A stretch of 32,928 nt of DNA from a virus, in the IMG/VR virus record IMGVR_UViG_3300028895_000206, positions 1 to 32,928 of that record; one strand, written 5' to 3'. The notes beneath the pieces are model-generated. The model did not search any database. It saw only the letters and a list, made by a program, of their open reading frames with translations, and was not told the origin of the DNA. This document shows, in pieces, positions 3,282 through 24,906 of this stretch. The translations under genes were made by a program, and so were the position numbers. Position 1 is the first letter of the stretch. Each line of letters begins with the position of its first letter.

Positions 3282-3299
3282 TGGTGTATACTGCAATCC
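3282..3299 (+). promoter_or_regulatory. Promoter with TATACT -10 immediately after terminator
   Basis: TATACT lies at 3287-3292 with TG directly upstream (3285-3286). No good -35 is visible at 17-18 bases, which fits the other extended -10 sites in this window. The expected start is near 3299. Confidence 0.5.
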
Positions 3300-3348
3300 T
3301 GGTCGTGAGGCCCTGACTTTTCCACAGCCCCGTACTACACGGGGTTTT
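3299..3348 (+). ncRNA. Candidate ~50-nt ORF-less transcript
   Basis: The interval runs from the expected start of the 3287 promoter to the terminator at 3328-3348. It contains no plausible ORF. It could be a genuine small RNA or simply the spacer of a stacked promoter-terminator control element. Transcription is inferred from signals only. Confidence 0.35.
3328..3348 (+). terminator. Intrinsic terminator
   Basis: CCCCG (3328-3332) pairs with CGGGG (3340-3344) around a 7-base loop, followed by TTTT (3345-3348). Another TATACT begins ten bases later. Confidence 0.75.
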
Positions 3349-3354
3349 GGATTG

Positions 3355-3363
3355 TGATATACT
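3355..3363 (+). promoter_or_regulatory. Extended -10 promoter TGATATACT
   Basis: TATACT lies at 3358-3363 and is preceded by TGA (3355-3357), a TGn extended -10. A DnaA-box-like TTTTCCACA is at 3318-3326, 31 bases upstream of the -10. The expected start is near 3370. Confidence 0.55.
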
Positions 3364-3369
3364 TCCTGG

Positions 3370-3438
3370 TGATGCACATAGTTCGCACACAAGCGAATAC
3401 AGACAGTTGCGTACTATACGAGAGTATGGTACTTTTTT
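3370..3438 (+). ncRNA. Candidate ~69-nt small RNA
   Basis: This is the interval between the 3358 promoter and the strong terminator at 3411-3438. It contains a small hairpin TTCGC (3382-3386)/GCGAA (3393-3397). The 5' arm GTTCGC (3381-3386) can alternatively pair with GCGAAC (3443-3448) if transcription reads through to the next terminator at 3494. No ORF starts here with translation signals. Its target or role is unknown. Confidence 0.4.
3411..3438 (+). terminator. Strong intrinsic terminator with GAGA loop
   Basis: GTACTATAC (3411-3419) pairs with GTATGGTAC (3424-3432), nine pairs with one G-U, across a GAGA tetraloop. Six T residues follow (3433-3438). Confidence 0.85.
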
Positions 3439-3461
3439 GTCAGCGAACTATATGTATCAGC

Positions 3462-3494
3462 AAAACCCCCTGCGCCTCGTGCGTGAGGGGTTTT
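3462..3494 (+). terminator. Intrinsic terminator
   Basis: AAAACCCC (3462-3469) pairs with GGGGTTTT (3487-3494) around an internally paired loop. The A-rich 5' arm is nearly symmetrical, so it could also act on the minus strand, though no minus-strand gene is seen. This is the third terminator within 240 bases. Confidence 0.75.
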
Positions 3495-3502
3495 GTGTTA
3501 CT

Positions 3503-6115: not shown

Positions 6116-6621
6116 AAAAGTGGTTGCTCAAGGTAGTAGACGGGAGGCCAACCACCACGAGCGCACACCAAAAGGCTGACTTCAAGGCGTGGCTAGGTGA
6201 AAATGAGGGTAAAATACTCGAAGTAGTCCCCCGTGAGCGCATATCAAAGGGGAAACGGGGCTACTTTGAGGGTGCTATCGTGCCAACGTATTGTGATTGG
6301 CACGATGCGCTTGATCCCAGGAACCCTGAACACCGCGCATTGGTGCGTGAAGAACTAAAAACAGAGTTCAACGGGGTCACACTCAAAGGTATTAGCGGAA
6401 AGCCACACAAGGTCGCACAGAGCACCACAGGGCTATCAAACGACCAGTTCGGACAGTTCCTAGAGCGTATCACGCGCTACTTCGAGGAAAACCAGATACC
6501 TATACCTGACCCTGAACTGTACAAACGATGGCAAGACATGTTCATGTTCGACTATCCTGACTACTGGGAGTGGCTACAGGCAACAAATCAACATGCAGAC
6601 GGGTCGCCAATTCAAGTATAG
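6112..6621 (+). CDS. NinB-like recombination protein
   Basis: The 169-residue protein has the layout of phage NinB-type recombination proteins. A short Lys-rich N terminus precedes a segment (KGKRGYFEGAIVPTYCDWH, about 46-64) in the place of the family's QNRxYxG region. Next comes FNGVTLKGISG, then the characteristic STTGLSNDQFGQFLERITRYFEENQIPIPDP (about 104-134). NinB of lambda promotes recombination-mediated replication and repair, acting on ssDNA/SSB complexes. Downstream neighbours are an HNH nuclease and RusA, paralleling the lambda nin region. The assignment rests on motif resemblance read by eye. Confidence 0.5.
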   Translation: MKKWLLKVVDGRPTTTSAHQKADFKAWLGENEGKILEVVPRERISKGKRGYFEGAIVPTYCDWHDALDPRNPEHRALVREELKTEFNGVTLKGISGKPHKVAQSTTGLSNDQFGQFLERITRYFEENQIPIPDPELYKRWQDMFMFDYPDYWEWLQATNQHADGSPIQV

Positions 6622-9481: not shown

Positions 9482-10147
9482 ATGAGTATCACTAATTCAA
9501 GTGGGGTAAATAAGGGCAATTCTGAAGGCATCAAAGCGTCTCACGGCATCAACGGGTCTGACGGCATCAACTGGTCTGACGGCATCAACAGGTCTCACGG
9601 CATCAACTGGTCTTACGGCATCAACTGGTCTTACGGCACCAACGGGTCTGACGGCATCAACTGGTCTGACGGCATCAACGCGTCTAACGGCATCAGCGGG
9701 TCTTACGGTGTATTGAACAGTTGCGGTGTAGACAAAGCACTGTTCCTAGCAGACAAGGAACGTACATGGAGTATCTTTGGTGTTGATGTAGATAAGGAAC
9801 GTTTTGACGAAGTGTGGGAAGAACTACACAACAAACTCAATGGCTGGTATCCGAAGTTTAACAATGCGTTTGAGTTGTACGTACAAGCGGGCAACGAATG
9901 GGAGAAGGTGAAAGCATCTGAGATAACTAACACACTAGACGACTGGGAAGAACCATACCAAGCATGGAAAGATATGCCCCAGGAAGCAGTGGACTATGTC
10001 CGCTCTCTACCAGAGTACGACGCAAAGATGTTTGAACGCATTACAGGACTCAAGGAAGGTGACGACGAGTTAGACGTAACTGTAGAAGGCAAGACCACAC
10101 GTATCAGTAGAAAGAGTGCTGTGGCACTGGGTTTATTGAAGGACTAA
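9482..10147 (+). CDS. Hexapeptide-repeat protein with conserved C-terminal domain
   Basis: Residues about 16-75 consist of ten tandem six-residue units of the form GIN-x-S-x, which would give a regular beta-type ladder or extended Ser/Asn/Gly surface. Residues 85-221 are a non-repetitive, Trp-rich domain ([38 protein letters not shown]) ending in a small basic helix. No catalytic motif was recognised. The gene-free stretch before it (9412-9481) has a TAATAC near the ATG but no clear promoter. It may be a surface, binding or regulatory protein; the repeat makes length variation likely. Confidence 0.65.
9527..9706 (+). repeat. Ten tandem 18-bp repeats inside a coding region
   Basis: Units begin GGCATCAAC and run 18 bases each (9527, 9545, 9563 and so on to 9689). 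Substitutions are concentrated at codons 4 and 6 of each unit, while GGC ATC AAC and TCT are nearly invariant. The period is a multiple of three, so gain or loss of units keeps the frame. Confidence 0.95.
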
Positions 10148-10801: not shown

Positions 10802-11000
10802 GTACGGCGACCATAACGGCAACATGGACTTACTGCACGGTGCTCCATACCCCAGTTGCCACAATGAGTTCCTTGAGTACCACCAAGAGCTGATACGCAA
10901 GCACAAGGATGCCCGTCGCAAGAGAGAACAGAATGGTTATCAACACCCAGAAGTCCCACCAGTCTTTCATCCTGATATACTAACAAAGGACGTTCATTGA
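10788..11000 (+). CDS. Small hypothetical protein
   Basis: The protein has 70 residues, is rich in His and Pro, and has a basic helix in the middle (ELIRKHKDARRKREQNG). The start at 10788 lies inside the previous gene; ATG 10824 is an alternative. It ends four bases before a strongly structured RNA element. No family was recognised. Confidence 0.4.
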   Translation: MPPSRYGDHNGNMDLLHGAPYPSCHNEFLEYHQELIRKHKDARRKREQNGYQHPEVPPVFHPDILTKDVH

Positions 11001-11004
11001 AAAA

Positions 11005-11138
11005 GTGATGTGGTGATGGGGGAGACAATGTGCAAGCTATGCGCACAGCACATGCAGGTTTGAACTCCTTGCAACTAACGAATGGCTTGATAAATAGCTA
11101 TAGAGCCAACGGCATGTGCCTCCCCACCACCACATCAC
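11005..11138 (+). promoter_or_regulatory. Multi-stem structured leader abutting a ribosome binding site
   Basis: A long closing helix pairs 11005-11022 (GTGATGTGGTGATGGGGG) with 11121-11138. Eleven pairs are perfect, followed by one A-C mismatch, five more pairs and a G-U. Inside are GTGC 11030-11033/GCAC 11042-11045, GCACA 11048-11052/TGTGC 11115-11119, TGCAGG 11053-11058 with CC/TGCA 11067-11073, and a GGCT/AGCC hairpin. The 3' strand of the closing helix ends one base before the SD AAAGGAG region (11139-11145) of the TTG-started gene at 11153. A multi-branch fold with a regulated SD is riboswitch-like. A trans-acting RNA or RNA-protein operator is also possible. No known class was recognised. 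Confidence 0.6.
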
Positions 11139-11152
11139 AAAGGAGAATTGTA

Positions 11153-11320
11153 TTGAAAGCAAAATCAGTAAAGCCACAACCCGTACCAAACGTACGTGTA
11201 CTAACGTGCATCATGTGCTCAGCTAAGACAGCACTGCCGTATGGGGCACTTCGTAATGGAATGTGCACCTGTAGCAAGGCGTGCTACGACAAAGCCAACG
11301 AGAAAAAGGAGAGATACTAA
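11153..11320 (+). CDS. Small Cys-rich zinc-binding protein, TTG start
   Basis: The 55-residue product starts at TTG 11153, placed seven bases after AAAGGAG (11139-11145); the longer frame from 11030 would run through the structured leader and is rejected. A basic N terminus leads into CIMC, then CTCSKAC, giving a four- to five-Cys zinc site resembling small phage zinc-finger proteins. Its SD touches the structured element at 11005-11138, so its expression is the one most likely controlled by it. The stop overlaps the next start. Confidence 0.6.
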   Translation: MKAKSVKPQPVPNVRVLTCIMCSAKTALPYGALRNGMCTCSKACYDKANEKKERY

Positions 11321-12284: not shown

Positions 12285-12305
12285 CCCATGCGCCACAAGC
12301 GCTTG

Positions 12306-12329
12306 AGCCCCTTGACCACAGGGGGCTTT
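12306..12329 (+). terminator. Intrinsic terminator with promoter -35 in its loop
   Basis: AGCCCC (12306-12311) pairs with GGGGCT (12322-12327), followed by TT. The loop contains TTGACC (12312-12317), a good sigma-70 -35. Confidence 0.75.
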
Positions 12330-12339
12330 CTGTTATACT
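12312..12339 (+). promoter_or_regulatory. Promoter TTGACC-16-TATACT superimposed on a terminator
   Basis: The -35 TTGACC (12312-12317) is in the terminator loop. The -10 TATACT (12334-12339) is preceded by TGT, an extended -10. The start is expected near 12346. This is the best -35 in the window. Confidence 0.7.
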
Positions 12340-12345
12340 GTAGTA

Positions 12346-12441
12346 GTCGTTTTTACACGCCCTCACGTGAGGATATGTCGGACAAATGTCTGACATTCGC
12401 AGCAGACGTGCTGAACACAGAGCCCCGACGGGGGCTTTGTT
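12346..12441 (+). ncRNA. Candidate ~95-nt structured small RNA
   Basis: The interval lies between the promoter at 12334 and the terminator at 12421-12441. It contains a palindromic CCTCACGTGAGG (12361-12372), an inverted repeat TGTCGGACA/TGTCTGACA (12376-12394) and a hairpin CAGCA/TGCTG (about 12400-12413). An ATG at 12375 opens a frame that reads into the terminator and lacks an SD. No known RNA class was recognised. Confidence 0.45.
12421..12441 (+). terminator. Intrinsic terminator
   Basis: AGCCCC (12421-12426) pairs with GGGGCT (12431-12436), followed by a T-rich tail TTGTTGTTT. The T-rich tail doubles as the -35 region of the next promoter. Confidence 0.75.
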
Positions 12442-12466
12442 GTTTACCGCTCAGATATGGTATACT
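12437..12466 (+). promoter_or_regulatory. Promoter TTGTTG-18-TATACT overlapping terminator tail
   Basis: The -35 TTGTTG (12437-12442) is the terminator's T tract. The -10 TATACT (12461-12466) carries an upstream TGG. The expected start is near 12473. Confidence 0.65.
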
Positions 12467-12472
12467 ATTGGT

Positions 12473-12543
12473 GTAGCTACCCGCTACCACCCTCCACATT
12501 GCCACCTGGCAATTTCACCCTCGCTTCGGCGAGGGCTTTTTTT
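12473..12543 (+). ncRNA. Candidate ~70-nt small RNA
   Basis: The transcript would run from the 12461 promoter to the UUCG-capped terminator. It contains a pyrimidine/purine-skewed single-stranded part (ACCACCCTCC) and a TTGCCA/TGGCAA hairpin (12499-12512). No ORF is present. Its function and targets are unknown. Confidence 0.45.
12518..12543 (+). terminator. Strong intrinsic terminator, UUCG loop
   Basis: CCCTCGC (12518-12524), TTCG loop, GCGAGGG (12529-12535), then C and seven T residues (12537-12543). It is the best terminator in the window. Confidence 0.95.
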
Positions 12544-12566
12544 GATAGCACACCACGATACATGTC

Positions 12567-12575
12567 TGGTACTAT
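12567..12575 (+). promoter_or_regulatory. Extended -10 promoter for the phosphoesterase gene
   Basis: TGG (12567-12569) precedes TACTAT (12570-12575), and no -35 is evident. The expected start is near 12582, leaving about 20 bases of leader before ATG 12602. Confidence 0.45.
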
Positions 12576-12601
12576 GTAAAGATATAAGCTAACAGCCCCA
12601 T

Positions 12602-22012: not shown

Positions 22013-22927
22013 ATGGCATTTCCTACAACTTCAGTTGGCGCATACAGCAATGGTTCAACCGACCTCGATGCAATGATGCCCTCACTGTGGGGAGAAAAAG
22101 TAAACGACTTCTACCGTGCAAACCTCGTGTGTGCCCCGTTCTTCACGGATCGCTCAGACGAAGTAGCAGATGGTGGTCGTATTATTTACACCCCATCCGT
22201 AACTGAGATGGCTGCAACGGCTAAGTCCAACGCAACCGCAGTTACACTCGTCGCTCCCGATGAAACGAACGTCACCCTCACCATCGACCAGTGGTACGAG
22301 GTATCGTTCGCCATTGAGGATCGCGAAATGGCTCAGGTCAAGCACAGCTACACCGTACAAGAGTCCTACGCTCGCAGCGCAGGATACGGCGTAGCAAAGA
22401 AGCTCGACACAGCTATCACTTCTCTGTTCTCTGGCTTCAGCCAGTCAGTTGGTGCTTCAACCACCAACCTCGCAGACAGCGAAATCCGCGCTGCTATCGC
22501 TTACCTCGACAGCGCAAACGTACCACAGGAAGACCGTGCATTCTTCATGCACCCTGATGTCTTCTGGAACGATGTACAGTCACTCGACAAGTTCTCACTG
22601 GCTATCAACAGCCCAGTTCAAGACCCTGTCGCCAAGAAGCCTATGGCATACCTGTACGGTATCCCTGTGTACATCACCACCCAGATACAGTACGTTTCTG
22701 GCACGACAGGCCGTTACAACGCTCTCGCTCACAAGGATGCTATCCACTGGGCTACCTCACCTCTTGGTTCTGGTGGTTCAAAGGGCAGCATGGTTGGCAG
22801 CGCAGGTGTTCGCGTCCAGTCAAACTACATCCCAGAATACCTCTCAACTCTCACAACCGCAGACATTCTCTACGGTGTAATCGAGAACCGAGATACTTCT
22901 GGTGTGAAGATGCTCACGGCTGCGTAG
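22013..22927 (+). CDS. Major capsid protein
   Basis: The 304-residue protein follows the scaffold and has the features of an HK97-fold coat protein of the P22/T7-like non-crosslinking type. They are an N-terminal arm (PSLWGEKVNDFYRANLVCAPFFTDRS), a beta-strand region with TIDQWYEVSFAIEDRE, a spine-type helix (RSAGYGVAKKLDTAITSLFSGF), DSANVPQEDRAFFMHPDVF, and LYGIPVYITTQI near the A-domain. Codon use is noticeably optimised (CTC, ACC and GCA frequent), as expected for the most abundant protein. It is followed by a terminator that allows separate control of downstream genes. Confidence 0.9.
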   Translation: MAFPTTSVGAYSNGSTDLDAMMPSLWGEKVNDFYRANLVCAPFFTDRSDEVADGGRIIYTPSVTEMAATAKSNATAVTLVAPDETNVTLTIDQWYEVSFAIEDREMAQVKHSYTVQESYARSAGYGVAKKLDTAITSLFSGFSQSVGASTTNLADSEIRAAIAYLDSANVPQEDRAFFMHPDVFWNDVQSLDKFSLAINSPVQDPVAKKPMAYLYGIPVYITTQIQYVSGTTGRYNALAHKDAIHWATSPLGSGGSKGSMVGSAGVRVQSNYIPEYLSTLTTADILYGVIENRDTSGVKMLTAA

Positions 22928-22941
22928 GTTCACCTACACAG

Positions 22942-22980
22942 TTGTCCACAAGCGCCCTACGGGGTGCTTTGTGGTATACT
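22942..22980 (+). promoter_or_regulatory. Extended -10 promoter TGGTATACT after the capsid terminator
   Basis: TATACT (22975-22980) with TGG upstream starts only five bases after the terminator T run. TTGTCCACA (22942-22950) lies 24 bases upstream of the -10. The expected start near 22987 leaves a 22-base leader to the ATG at 23009. Confidence 0.6.
22951..22970 (+). terminator. Intrinsic terminator after the major capsid gene
   Basis: AGCGCCC (22951-22957) pairs with GGGTGCT (22962-22968), with a TACG loop and a short T run. An adjacent inverted repeat, GTAGGT/ACCTAC (22924-22937), spans the capsid stop codon. The T run is weak, so partial readthrough is likely. Confidence 0.7.
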
Positions 22981-24794: not shown

Positions 24795-24804
24795 AGGGTT
24801 GGAT

Positions 24805-24850
24805 CGGGGGGTGCAAGGGCTTTCCAGCCCTCAGCGACTTGCACCCTCCG
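24805..24850 (+). ncRNA. Strong stable hairpin between head genes
   Basis: CGGGGGGTGCAAG (24805-24817) pairs with CTTGCACCCTCCG (24838-24850), thirteen pairs with one G-U. A competing or inner stem GGGCT 24817-24821/AGCCC 24826-24830 shares one base. No T run follows, so this is not a standard terminator. It could be an RNA-processing site, a protein-binding site or a leader element for the adaptor gene at 24907. Confidence 0.6.
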
Positions 24851-24906
24851 TTCGTGCCATTTACAATTAGGGAAAGCGTTGTCGTTGGCGCATAATTTAA
24901 GCAATC

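Follow-up and report, generated by a model that had tools for sequence, protein, structure and literature searches.

Stable helices near the 5′ end of an mRNA serve in phages and bacteria as 5′ stabilisers or as processing sites for double-strand RNases. A further system suited to comparison with the locus described here is the STnc100-like RNA of enterobacterial phages, which is present in 4604 of 5426 E. coli genomes and precedes dicB, kil/kilR and tciA/terB-like genes (D6, P7). STnc100 and PasD have been classed among the prophage sRNAs (PMC13192938). In our comparisons, STnc100-like RNAs occurred both as terminated units and as leaders. The parts of the literature consulted contain no description of the STnc100-like RNA as a leader of host-inhibition genes.

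Among 12 diverse versions of this RNA, 20 of the 41 consensus pairs appeared changed on both sides, none of 500 shuffles reaching any of five measures, and within the closing helix of the family such changes affected 12 of 18 pairs. An enterobacterial prophage element between dicF and dicB occupies the same place relative to its gene as the element analysed in this work, and matches Rfam STnc100 (RF02076) with a score under the gathering threshold. In most of the loci L097-L100, L104 and L107-L109, the 3′ arm of the STnc100-like RNA ends shortly before the Shine-Dalgarno sequence (SD) of the gene, and a locus of Citrobacter braakii (L127, G001:C21:115729-117468) carries four diverged STnc100-like copies within 1.8 kb. 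The published RNase III site generates the 5′ end of the 190-nt DicF RNA (PMC10448788), so that RNase III cutting of the dicB leader provides no evidence for cuts inside the STnc100-like element.

The window studied here, that is, the whole stretch of 32,928 nucleotides that was analysed, is a 32.9-kb IMG/VR virus record (IMGVR_UViG_3300028895_000206) from an uncultivated tailed phage in which terminase, portal and capsid genes are present. Our analyses suggest that an element at 11005-11138 of this window forms a structured leader at the 5′ end of a small phage mRNA, a reading to which we assign a probability of roughly one half.

Genomic context and predicted fold

Likely genes of this phage all lie on the + strand, with a median gene-to-gene gap of 1 base. 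The gap that holds the element (11001-11152) comprises 152 bases between a 70-aa ORF and the TTG-started 55-aa Cys-rich ORF, and is spanned almost exactly by the closing helix P1 (Table 1). Further upstream, the region 9482-10147 encodes a repeat protein with many near-identical units in its N-terminal part, whose matches to PHROG tail proteins were weak.

The core of P1 consists of 11 pairs, 11005-11015 (GTGATGTGGTG) being perfectly complementary to 11128-11138 (CACCACATCAC). Inward of this core follow an A.C mismatch (11016/11127), the segment TGGGG/CCCCA, a one-base bulge and AG/CT, giving a total of 18 pairs and the strongest helix of its kind in the 33-kb window. The stretch 11027-11046 (AATGTGCAAGCTATGCGCAC), which forms hairpin H1, contains the GCTATGCGCAC motif known from STnc100-like leaders, and the predicted minimum free energy of the element is −57.8 kcal/mol. 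The loop of H1 (AGCUAU) is complementary to AUAGCU at 11094-11099, for which a simple count gives a chance of ~1%, and judging from this complementarity the two could engage in a loop-loop contact. The preliminary description had reported a long helix closing a branched interior, with one arm adjoining an SD, and this picture is accurate. ARAGORN gave no tRNA or tmRNA match to the element. Also inside the element, at 11028-11063, an 11-codon ORF (MCKLCAQHMQV) follows GGGGGAG at a short spacing and might encode a leader peptide.

Table 1. Positions of the features of the element, of the adjoining genes and of the promoter-like motif in the window
Feature	Position	Strand	Remarks
5′ arm of closing helix P1	11005-11024	+	18 pairs with 11120-11138
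3′ arm of closing helix P1	11120-11138	+	from sequence and predicted fold
Hairpin H1	11029-11045	+	within the ~95-base interior
Stem P2	11048-11055/11112-11119	+	8 Watson-Crick pairs; encloses stems 11056-11069 and 11079-11111
CUCCUU, exact complement of SD AAGGAG	11065-11070	+	inner loop of the predicted fold
Shine-Dalgarno AAGGAG	11140-11145	+	7 bases before TTG 11153; one base after the 3′ arm end at 11138
Cys-rich ORF, 55 aa, TTG start, CxxC ... CxCxxxC	11153-11319	+	from the ORF list
Second small Cys-rich ORF	ATG 11320	+	ATG overlaps the stop of the 11153 ORF
Extended −10 motif TGATATACT	10973-10981	+	predicted start ~10988; no good −35
Copies of extended −10 motif TGNTATACT	3355, 4363, 10973, 12331, 12458, 22972	+	from the motif count

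It is conceivable that the region is coding, the Cys-rich gene starting at GTG 11030 (SD GGGGGAG, spacing 5) or at ATG 11039 and the helix being in part a by-product. The frame is indeed open from 11030 and has the best codon score of the three in the element (−0.25 versus −0.50 and −0.51). However, −0.14 was obtained for the extension, where coding sequence has 0.21 (sd 0.10) and out-of-frame stretches have −0.43 (sd 0.22). A coding interior, which we consider improbable, also leaves unexplained both the 18-pair helix and the SD right after it. As to the 11153 ORF, its codon score of −0.06 is the best of the three frames (−0.42 and −0.37 for the other two) and lies below that of typical genes; no protein family was found for it.

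Comparison with shuffled sequences

Taken alone, P1 is unremarkable in a sequence of 33 kb: dinucleotide-shuffled windows contained on average 0.77 helices of at least 17 pairs with at most two defects, and a duplex at least as stable as P1, with arms 70-200 bases apart, appeared in 84 of 100 shuffled windows. The complete gap 11001-11152, in turn, folds at −59.3 kcal/mol against a shuffle mean of −38.5 (z −5.5), a value equalled by none of 2000 shuffles, and the 134-base element alone gives a z of −5.8. Among the eight gaps of at least 100 bases, only the promoter/terminator array at 12285-12601 surpasses that of the element. The earlier argument that so long a helix implies selection thus fails for the helix alone, comparable ones being found in shuffles, whereas the fold of the gap and the position of the element indicate that it is hardly noise; for the element as a whole, noise is an unlikely explanation. 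A z-score alone is no proof of function, since a few coding stretches in a sliding scan also reached values of −5 to −6.6. Three stretches with unusually stable folds lay mostly within coding genes (6211-6360 and 22261-22410 on the + strand, 22831-22980 on the − strand; z −5 to −6.6), and a 112-base gap at 24795-24906 (z −4.3) appeared structured on both strands.

The same data bear on the notion of a chance inverted repeat in a spacer, or of the remnant of an inserted element bounded by terminal inverted repeats. Shuffled windows often contain helices as strong as P1, and the element occurs in a single copy, both in keeping with such an origin; nevertheless, neither a second copy nor a target duplication was seen, and the gap fold as well as a partial match to a covarying RNA family (see below) make it very unlikely.

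Promoter motif and probable strand of transcription

The extended −10 motif TGNTATACT occurs six times in the window, always on the + strand, where 0.83 copies are expected and none of 100 shuffles reached six. Five of these copies lie at or near the starts of small structured transcripts or genes, and four of the five are located closely 3′ of terminator-like hairpins. As the copy at 10973 predicts a transcription start 17 bases upstream of the closing helix, the element was read as the 5′ leader of the small Cys-rich gene group.

The opposite strand offers a small RNA of its own, with a weak TACAAT at 11152-11147, a start near 11140, the long closing helix and five U at 11004-11000 directly after it. 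Its fold (−61.2 kcal/mol, z −6.0) is as good as that of the + strand, and in its helix 17 pairs run without interruption, as a G.U pair replaces the A.C mismatch. On the other hand, neither a −35 nor an extended −10 was detected on the − strand of the element and all six TGNTATACT copies lie on the + strand. The preference for the + strand is also backed independently by R2, a covariance model of the STnc100-like family, which scores 17.2 bits on the + and 9 bits on the − strand of the element. We consequently prefer the leader on the + strand, and a − strand small RNA seems to us rather remote.

Other structured RNAs appeared in this phage. The regions 3287-3500 and 12331-12540 hold cassettes composed of a −10 motif, a short structured RNA and a terminator, which resemble small phage RNAs and matched no Rfam family. 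The segment 3368-3500 has its own long closing helix and terminator (z −6.2), and z values of −4.9 and −5.0 were obtained for the cassette RNAs 12346-12445 and 12472-12545. Elsewhere, in contig L010 (118-260, − strand), a strong promoter-like site precedes an RNA that is closed by a helix of 18-20 pairs and has two inner stems and a U-run (z −5.6); this RNA gave no Rfam match and is a candidate for another phage small RNA. In contig L053 (7178-7320), a long hairpin RNA with U7 at its end (z −5.1) comes after TGCTATAAT.

The presence of promoter-RNA-terminator cassettes in this phage, among them the one at 3368-3460, which is likewise closed by a long helix, would suit an element that is chiefly a trans-acting sRNA, whether released from the leader or from read-through transcripts or transcribed separately. 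Such an sRNA would pair with host RNAs as prophage sRNAs of the Pas/STnc100 type do, and the adjoining SD would be incidental. The classification of STnc100 and PasD as prophage sRNAs (PMC13192938) points in the same direction, as do the terminated STnc100-like units and the Citrobacter braakii cluster of four. Since no terminator was found on the + strand 3′ of the element, and an SD and an ORF follow immediately, we regard a primary role in trans as unlikely.

Ribosome-binding site and mode of action

The proposal of a structured leader touching an SD gains support from the fold, from the promoter-like motif just upstream and from the SD and gene group directly downstream. When the modelled RNA started at 11005, the SD was unpaired with a probability of ~0.97-1.0; with a start at 10988, its bases were unpaired at 0.3-0.99, depending on base and length. 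Pairing of the entire SD, computed with folding penalties for the RNA started at 10988, costs 3.7-4.6 kcal/mol and occurs through a weak 5-pair extension of the helix with the 5′ tail.

The preliminary description had also called the element riboswitch-like. A ligand-binding riboswitch controlling translation of the Cys-rich gene would be in line with a multi-branched leader adjoining an SD and with the inner-loop CUCCUU, which complements the SD. The data do not favour this idea. A Rfam scan of the element, riboswitch aptamers included, matched no family, and no homologues with a conserved pocket were found. The pair probability of 11005-11015 was 0.99-1.0 in three transcript lengths and in every context folded, so that P1 never opens in the ensemble and no competing fold acts as an expression platform. 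In the predicted structure, moreover, an anti-SD role of CUCCUU would be sterically hard and is doubtful, because the SD lies at the open end of a ~20-pair helix and CUCCUU past its far end. With P1 constant, no terminator and this contact doubtful, a constitutive leader or processing module, perhaps with a partner, is favoured over a switch, and we judge a riboswitch highly improbable.

Homologue searches and possible relation to STnc100-like RNAs

Searches for relatives of the element in the collections at hand yielded no diverged second copy, be it by blastn, patterns, neighbouring proteins or R1, a covariance model built from the element's single sequence. Blastn gave nothing against phages and three short chance-level matches against plasmids, while exact patterns retrieved from viral and genome contigs only the identical contig L054 (same phage) or chance hits. 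For the loci from one of these pattern searches, assignment to chance was checked with the covariance models. R1 found no match in 77 viral loci, nor in 299 genomes in what was a weak search, run with strict filters and without a positive control. The proteins encoded at 11153, 12602 and 6112 had no relatives outside the same phage, and the element region was not common to the relatives of the terminase. Other Rfam families with E<10 were at chance level. Among them DapZ (RF02551), whose G/U-rich 5′ part resembles GUGAUGUGGU on the − strand of the element (15.3 bits, E 2.7), was rejected for its opposite strand and a chance-level score far below the gathering value of 56.

The STnc100-like family came to light in a scan for the closing core that allowed an interior of any sequence and of 98-120 bases, which returned L054 (same phage) and seven contigs of one enterobacterial prophage element. 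This hit alone is weak evidence, since we estimate, by reasoning and not with a tool, that about 0.1-0.3 chance matches of both 11-base arms are to be expected in the viral collection. Several likenesses go with it. Some family members carry the same 11-pair core (GTGATGTGGTG/CACCACATCAC); the arms of the family end in GYRGUG/CACYRC and covary, and GUGAUGUGGUG/CACCACAUCAC of the window fits this ending. Both RNAs have a branched interior of similar length with the H1 loop motif GCUAUGCGCAC on the same strand, and each is followed directly by the start of a small phage gene. For the 5′ hairpin of the family, AAUGYG-GCUNNGCGCAC directly after the 5′ arm, the window offers a possible counterpart in AAUGUG-CAA-GCUAUGCGCAC, which lies further inward and carries an insertion of 3 bases; the outer pairs of the family form only partly in H1 of the window.

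R2 found a single hit in the window, at 11002-11140 on the + strand and spanning the full model (17.2 bits, E 0.0015). The region had in part been selected by its arms, and part of this score comes from the arms through which the family had been found. In 765 kb of comparable phage DNA the model did not exceed 10.6 bits. The motif AATGYG..GCTNNGCGCAC, present at 11027-11046, occurs nowhere on either strand of 1.67 Mb of related phage DNA. The score of H1 of the window, whose sequence was not used in finding the family, with the family profile of this hairpin was reached by 3 of 3000 shuffles, and that with a profile of the whole interior by 16 of 3000.

The element differs from the family in lacking the hairpin CCSGGAGGCACCSGG beside the 3′ arm, the 3′ profile giving no match, as well as the GUUAAYUGUUAACUGG hairpin, and in its location, before a Cys-rich gene of an unrelated phage. 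The Rfam model RF02076 did not match the element at E up to 10. As the GGAGGCAC hairpin, invariant in A4 and largely retained in diverged STnc100-like copies, is missing here, we do not claim membership of the family. Among 274 genomes from the class to which Citrobacter braakii belongs, R2 yielded a single 28-bit match apart from the query genome, and hence no intermediate was found. Kinship of the element with STnc100-like RNAs is accordingly put forward as a tentative proposal, somewhat less probable than its absence.

Proposed function and implications

Taken together, the element is most likely a cis-acting leader or processing module, and probably a real leader RNA that stands as an orphan. 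With the extended −10 motif at 10973 as its promoter, transcription would begin near 10988, and the RNA would fold into a branched core locked by the 18-pair helix, whose 3′ arm ends one base before the ribosome-binding site. This closing helix may be permanent rather than switched, shielding the 5′ end of the message, separating it from read-through of the upstream gene, possibly with cutting by a double-strand RNase, and presenting the SD of the small Cys-rich genes. In having a stable helix near the 5′ end, directly before the SD, the element resembles the 5′ stabilisers of phage and bacterial mRNAs and the sites processed by double-strand RNases; its branched interior of ~95 bases sets it apart from them. 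A protein or another RNA would likely bind the core as well, to judge from the GCUAUGCGCAC motif of the loop and from the loop-loop contact that may form; such binding would be expected of an element working like the STnc100-like leaders of dicB, kil and tciA. Against the leader reading stand a promoter with no clear −35, an equally good fold of the − strand, the weak codon support downstream and an SD that in some contexts pairs in part with the 5′ tail.

With some reserve, we further propose that an old phage RNA module, consisting of a long covarying closing helix and the GCUAUGCGCA loop, moves between unrelated phages, precedes host-takeover genes and exists also as a free sRNA, the STnc100-like leaders being one outlying branch of it and the element of this window its first member outside enterobacterial phages; we hold this possible, with odds short of even. 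If the kinship is false, the element is still likely a structured leader, in a phage apparently endowed with several promoter-RNA-terminator cassettes. If it is true, a catalogued prophage sRNA of Salmonella and E. coli would turn out to be a leader module of phages in general, placed ahead of genes that inhibit the host, and the small Cys-rich genes would be candidates for this same class of early host-takeover genes.
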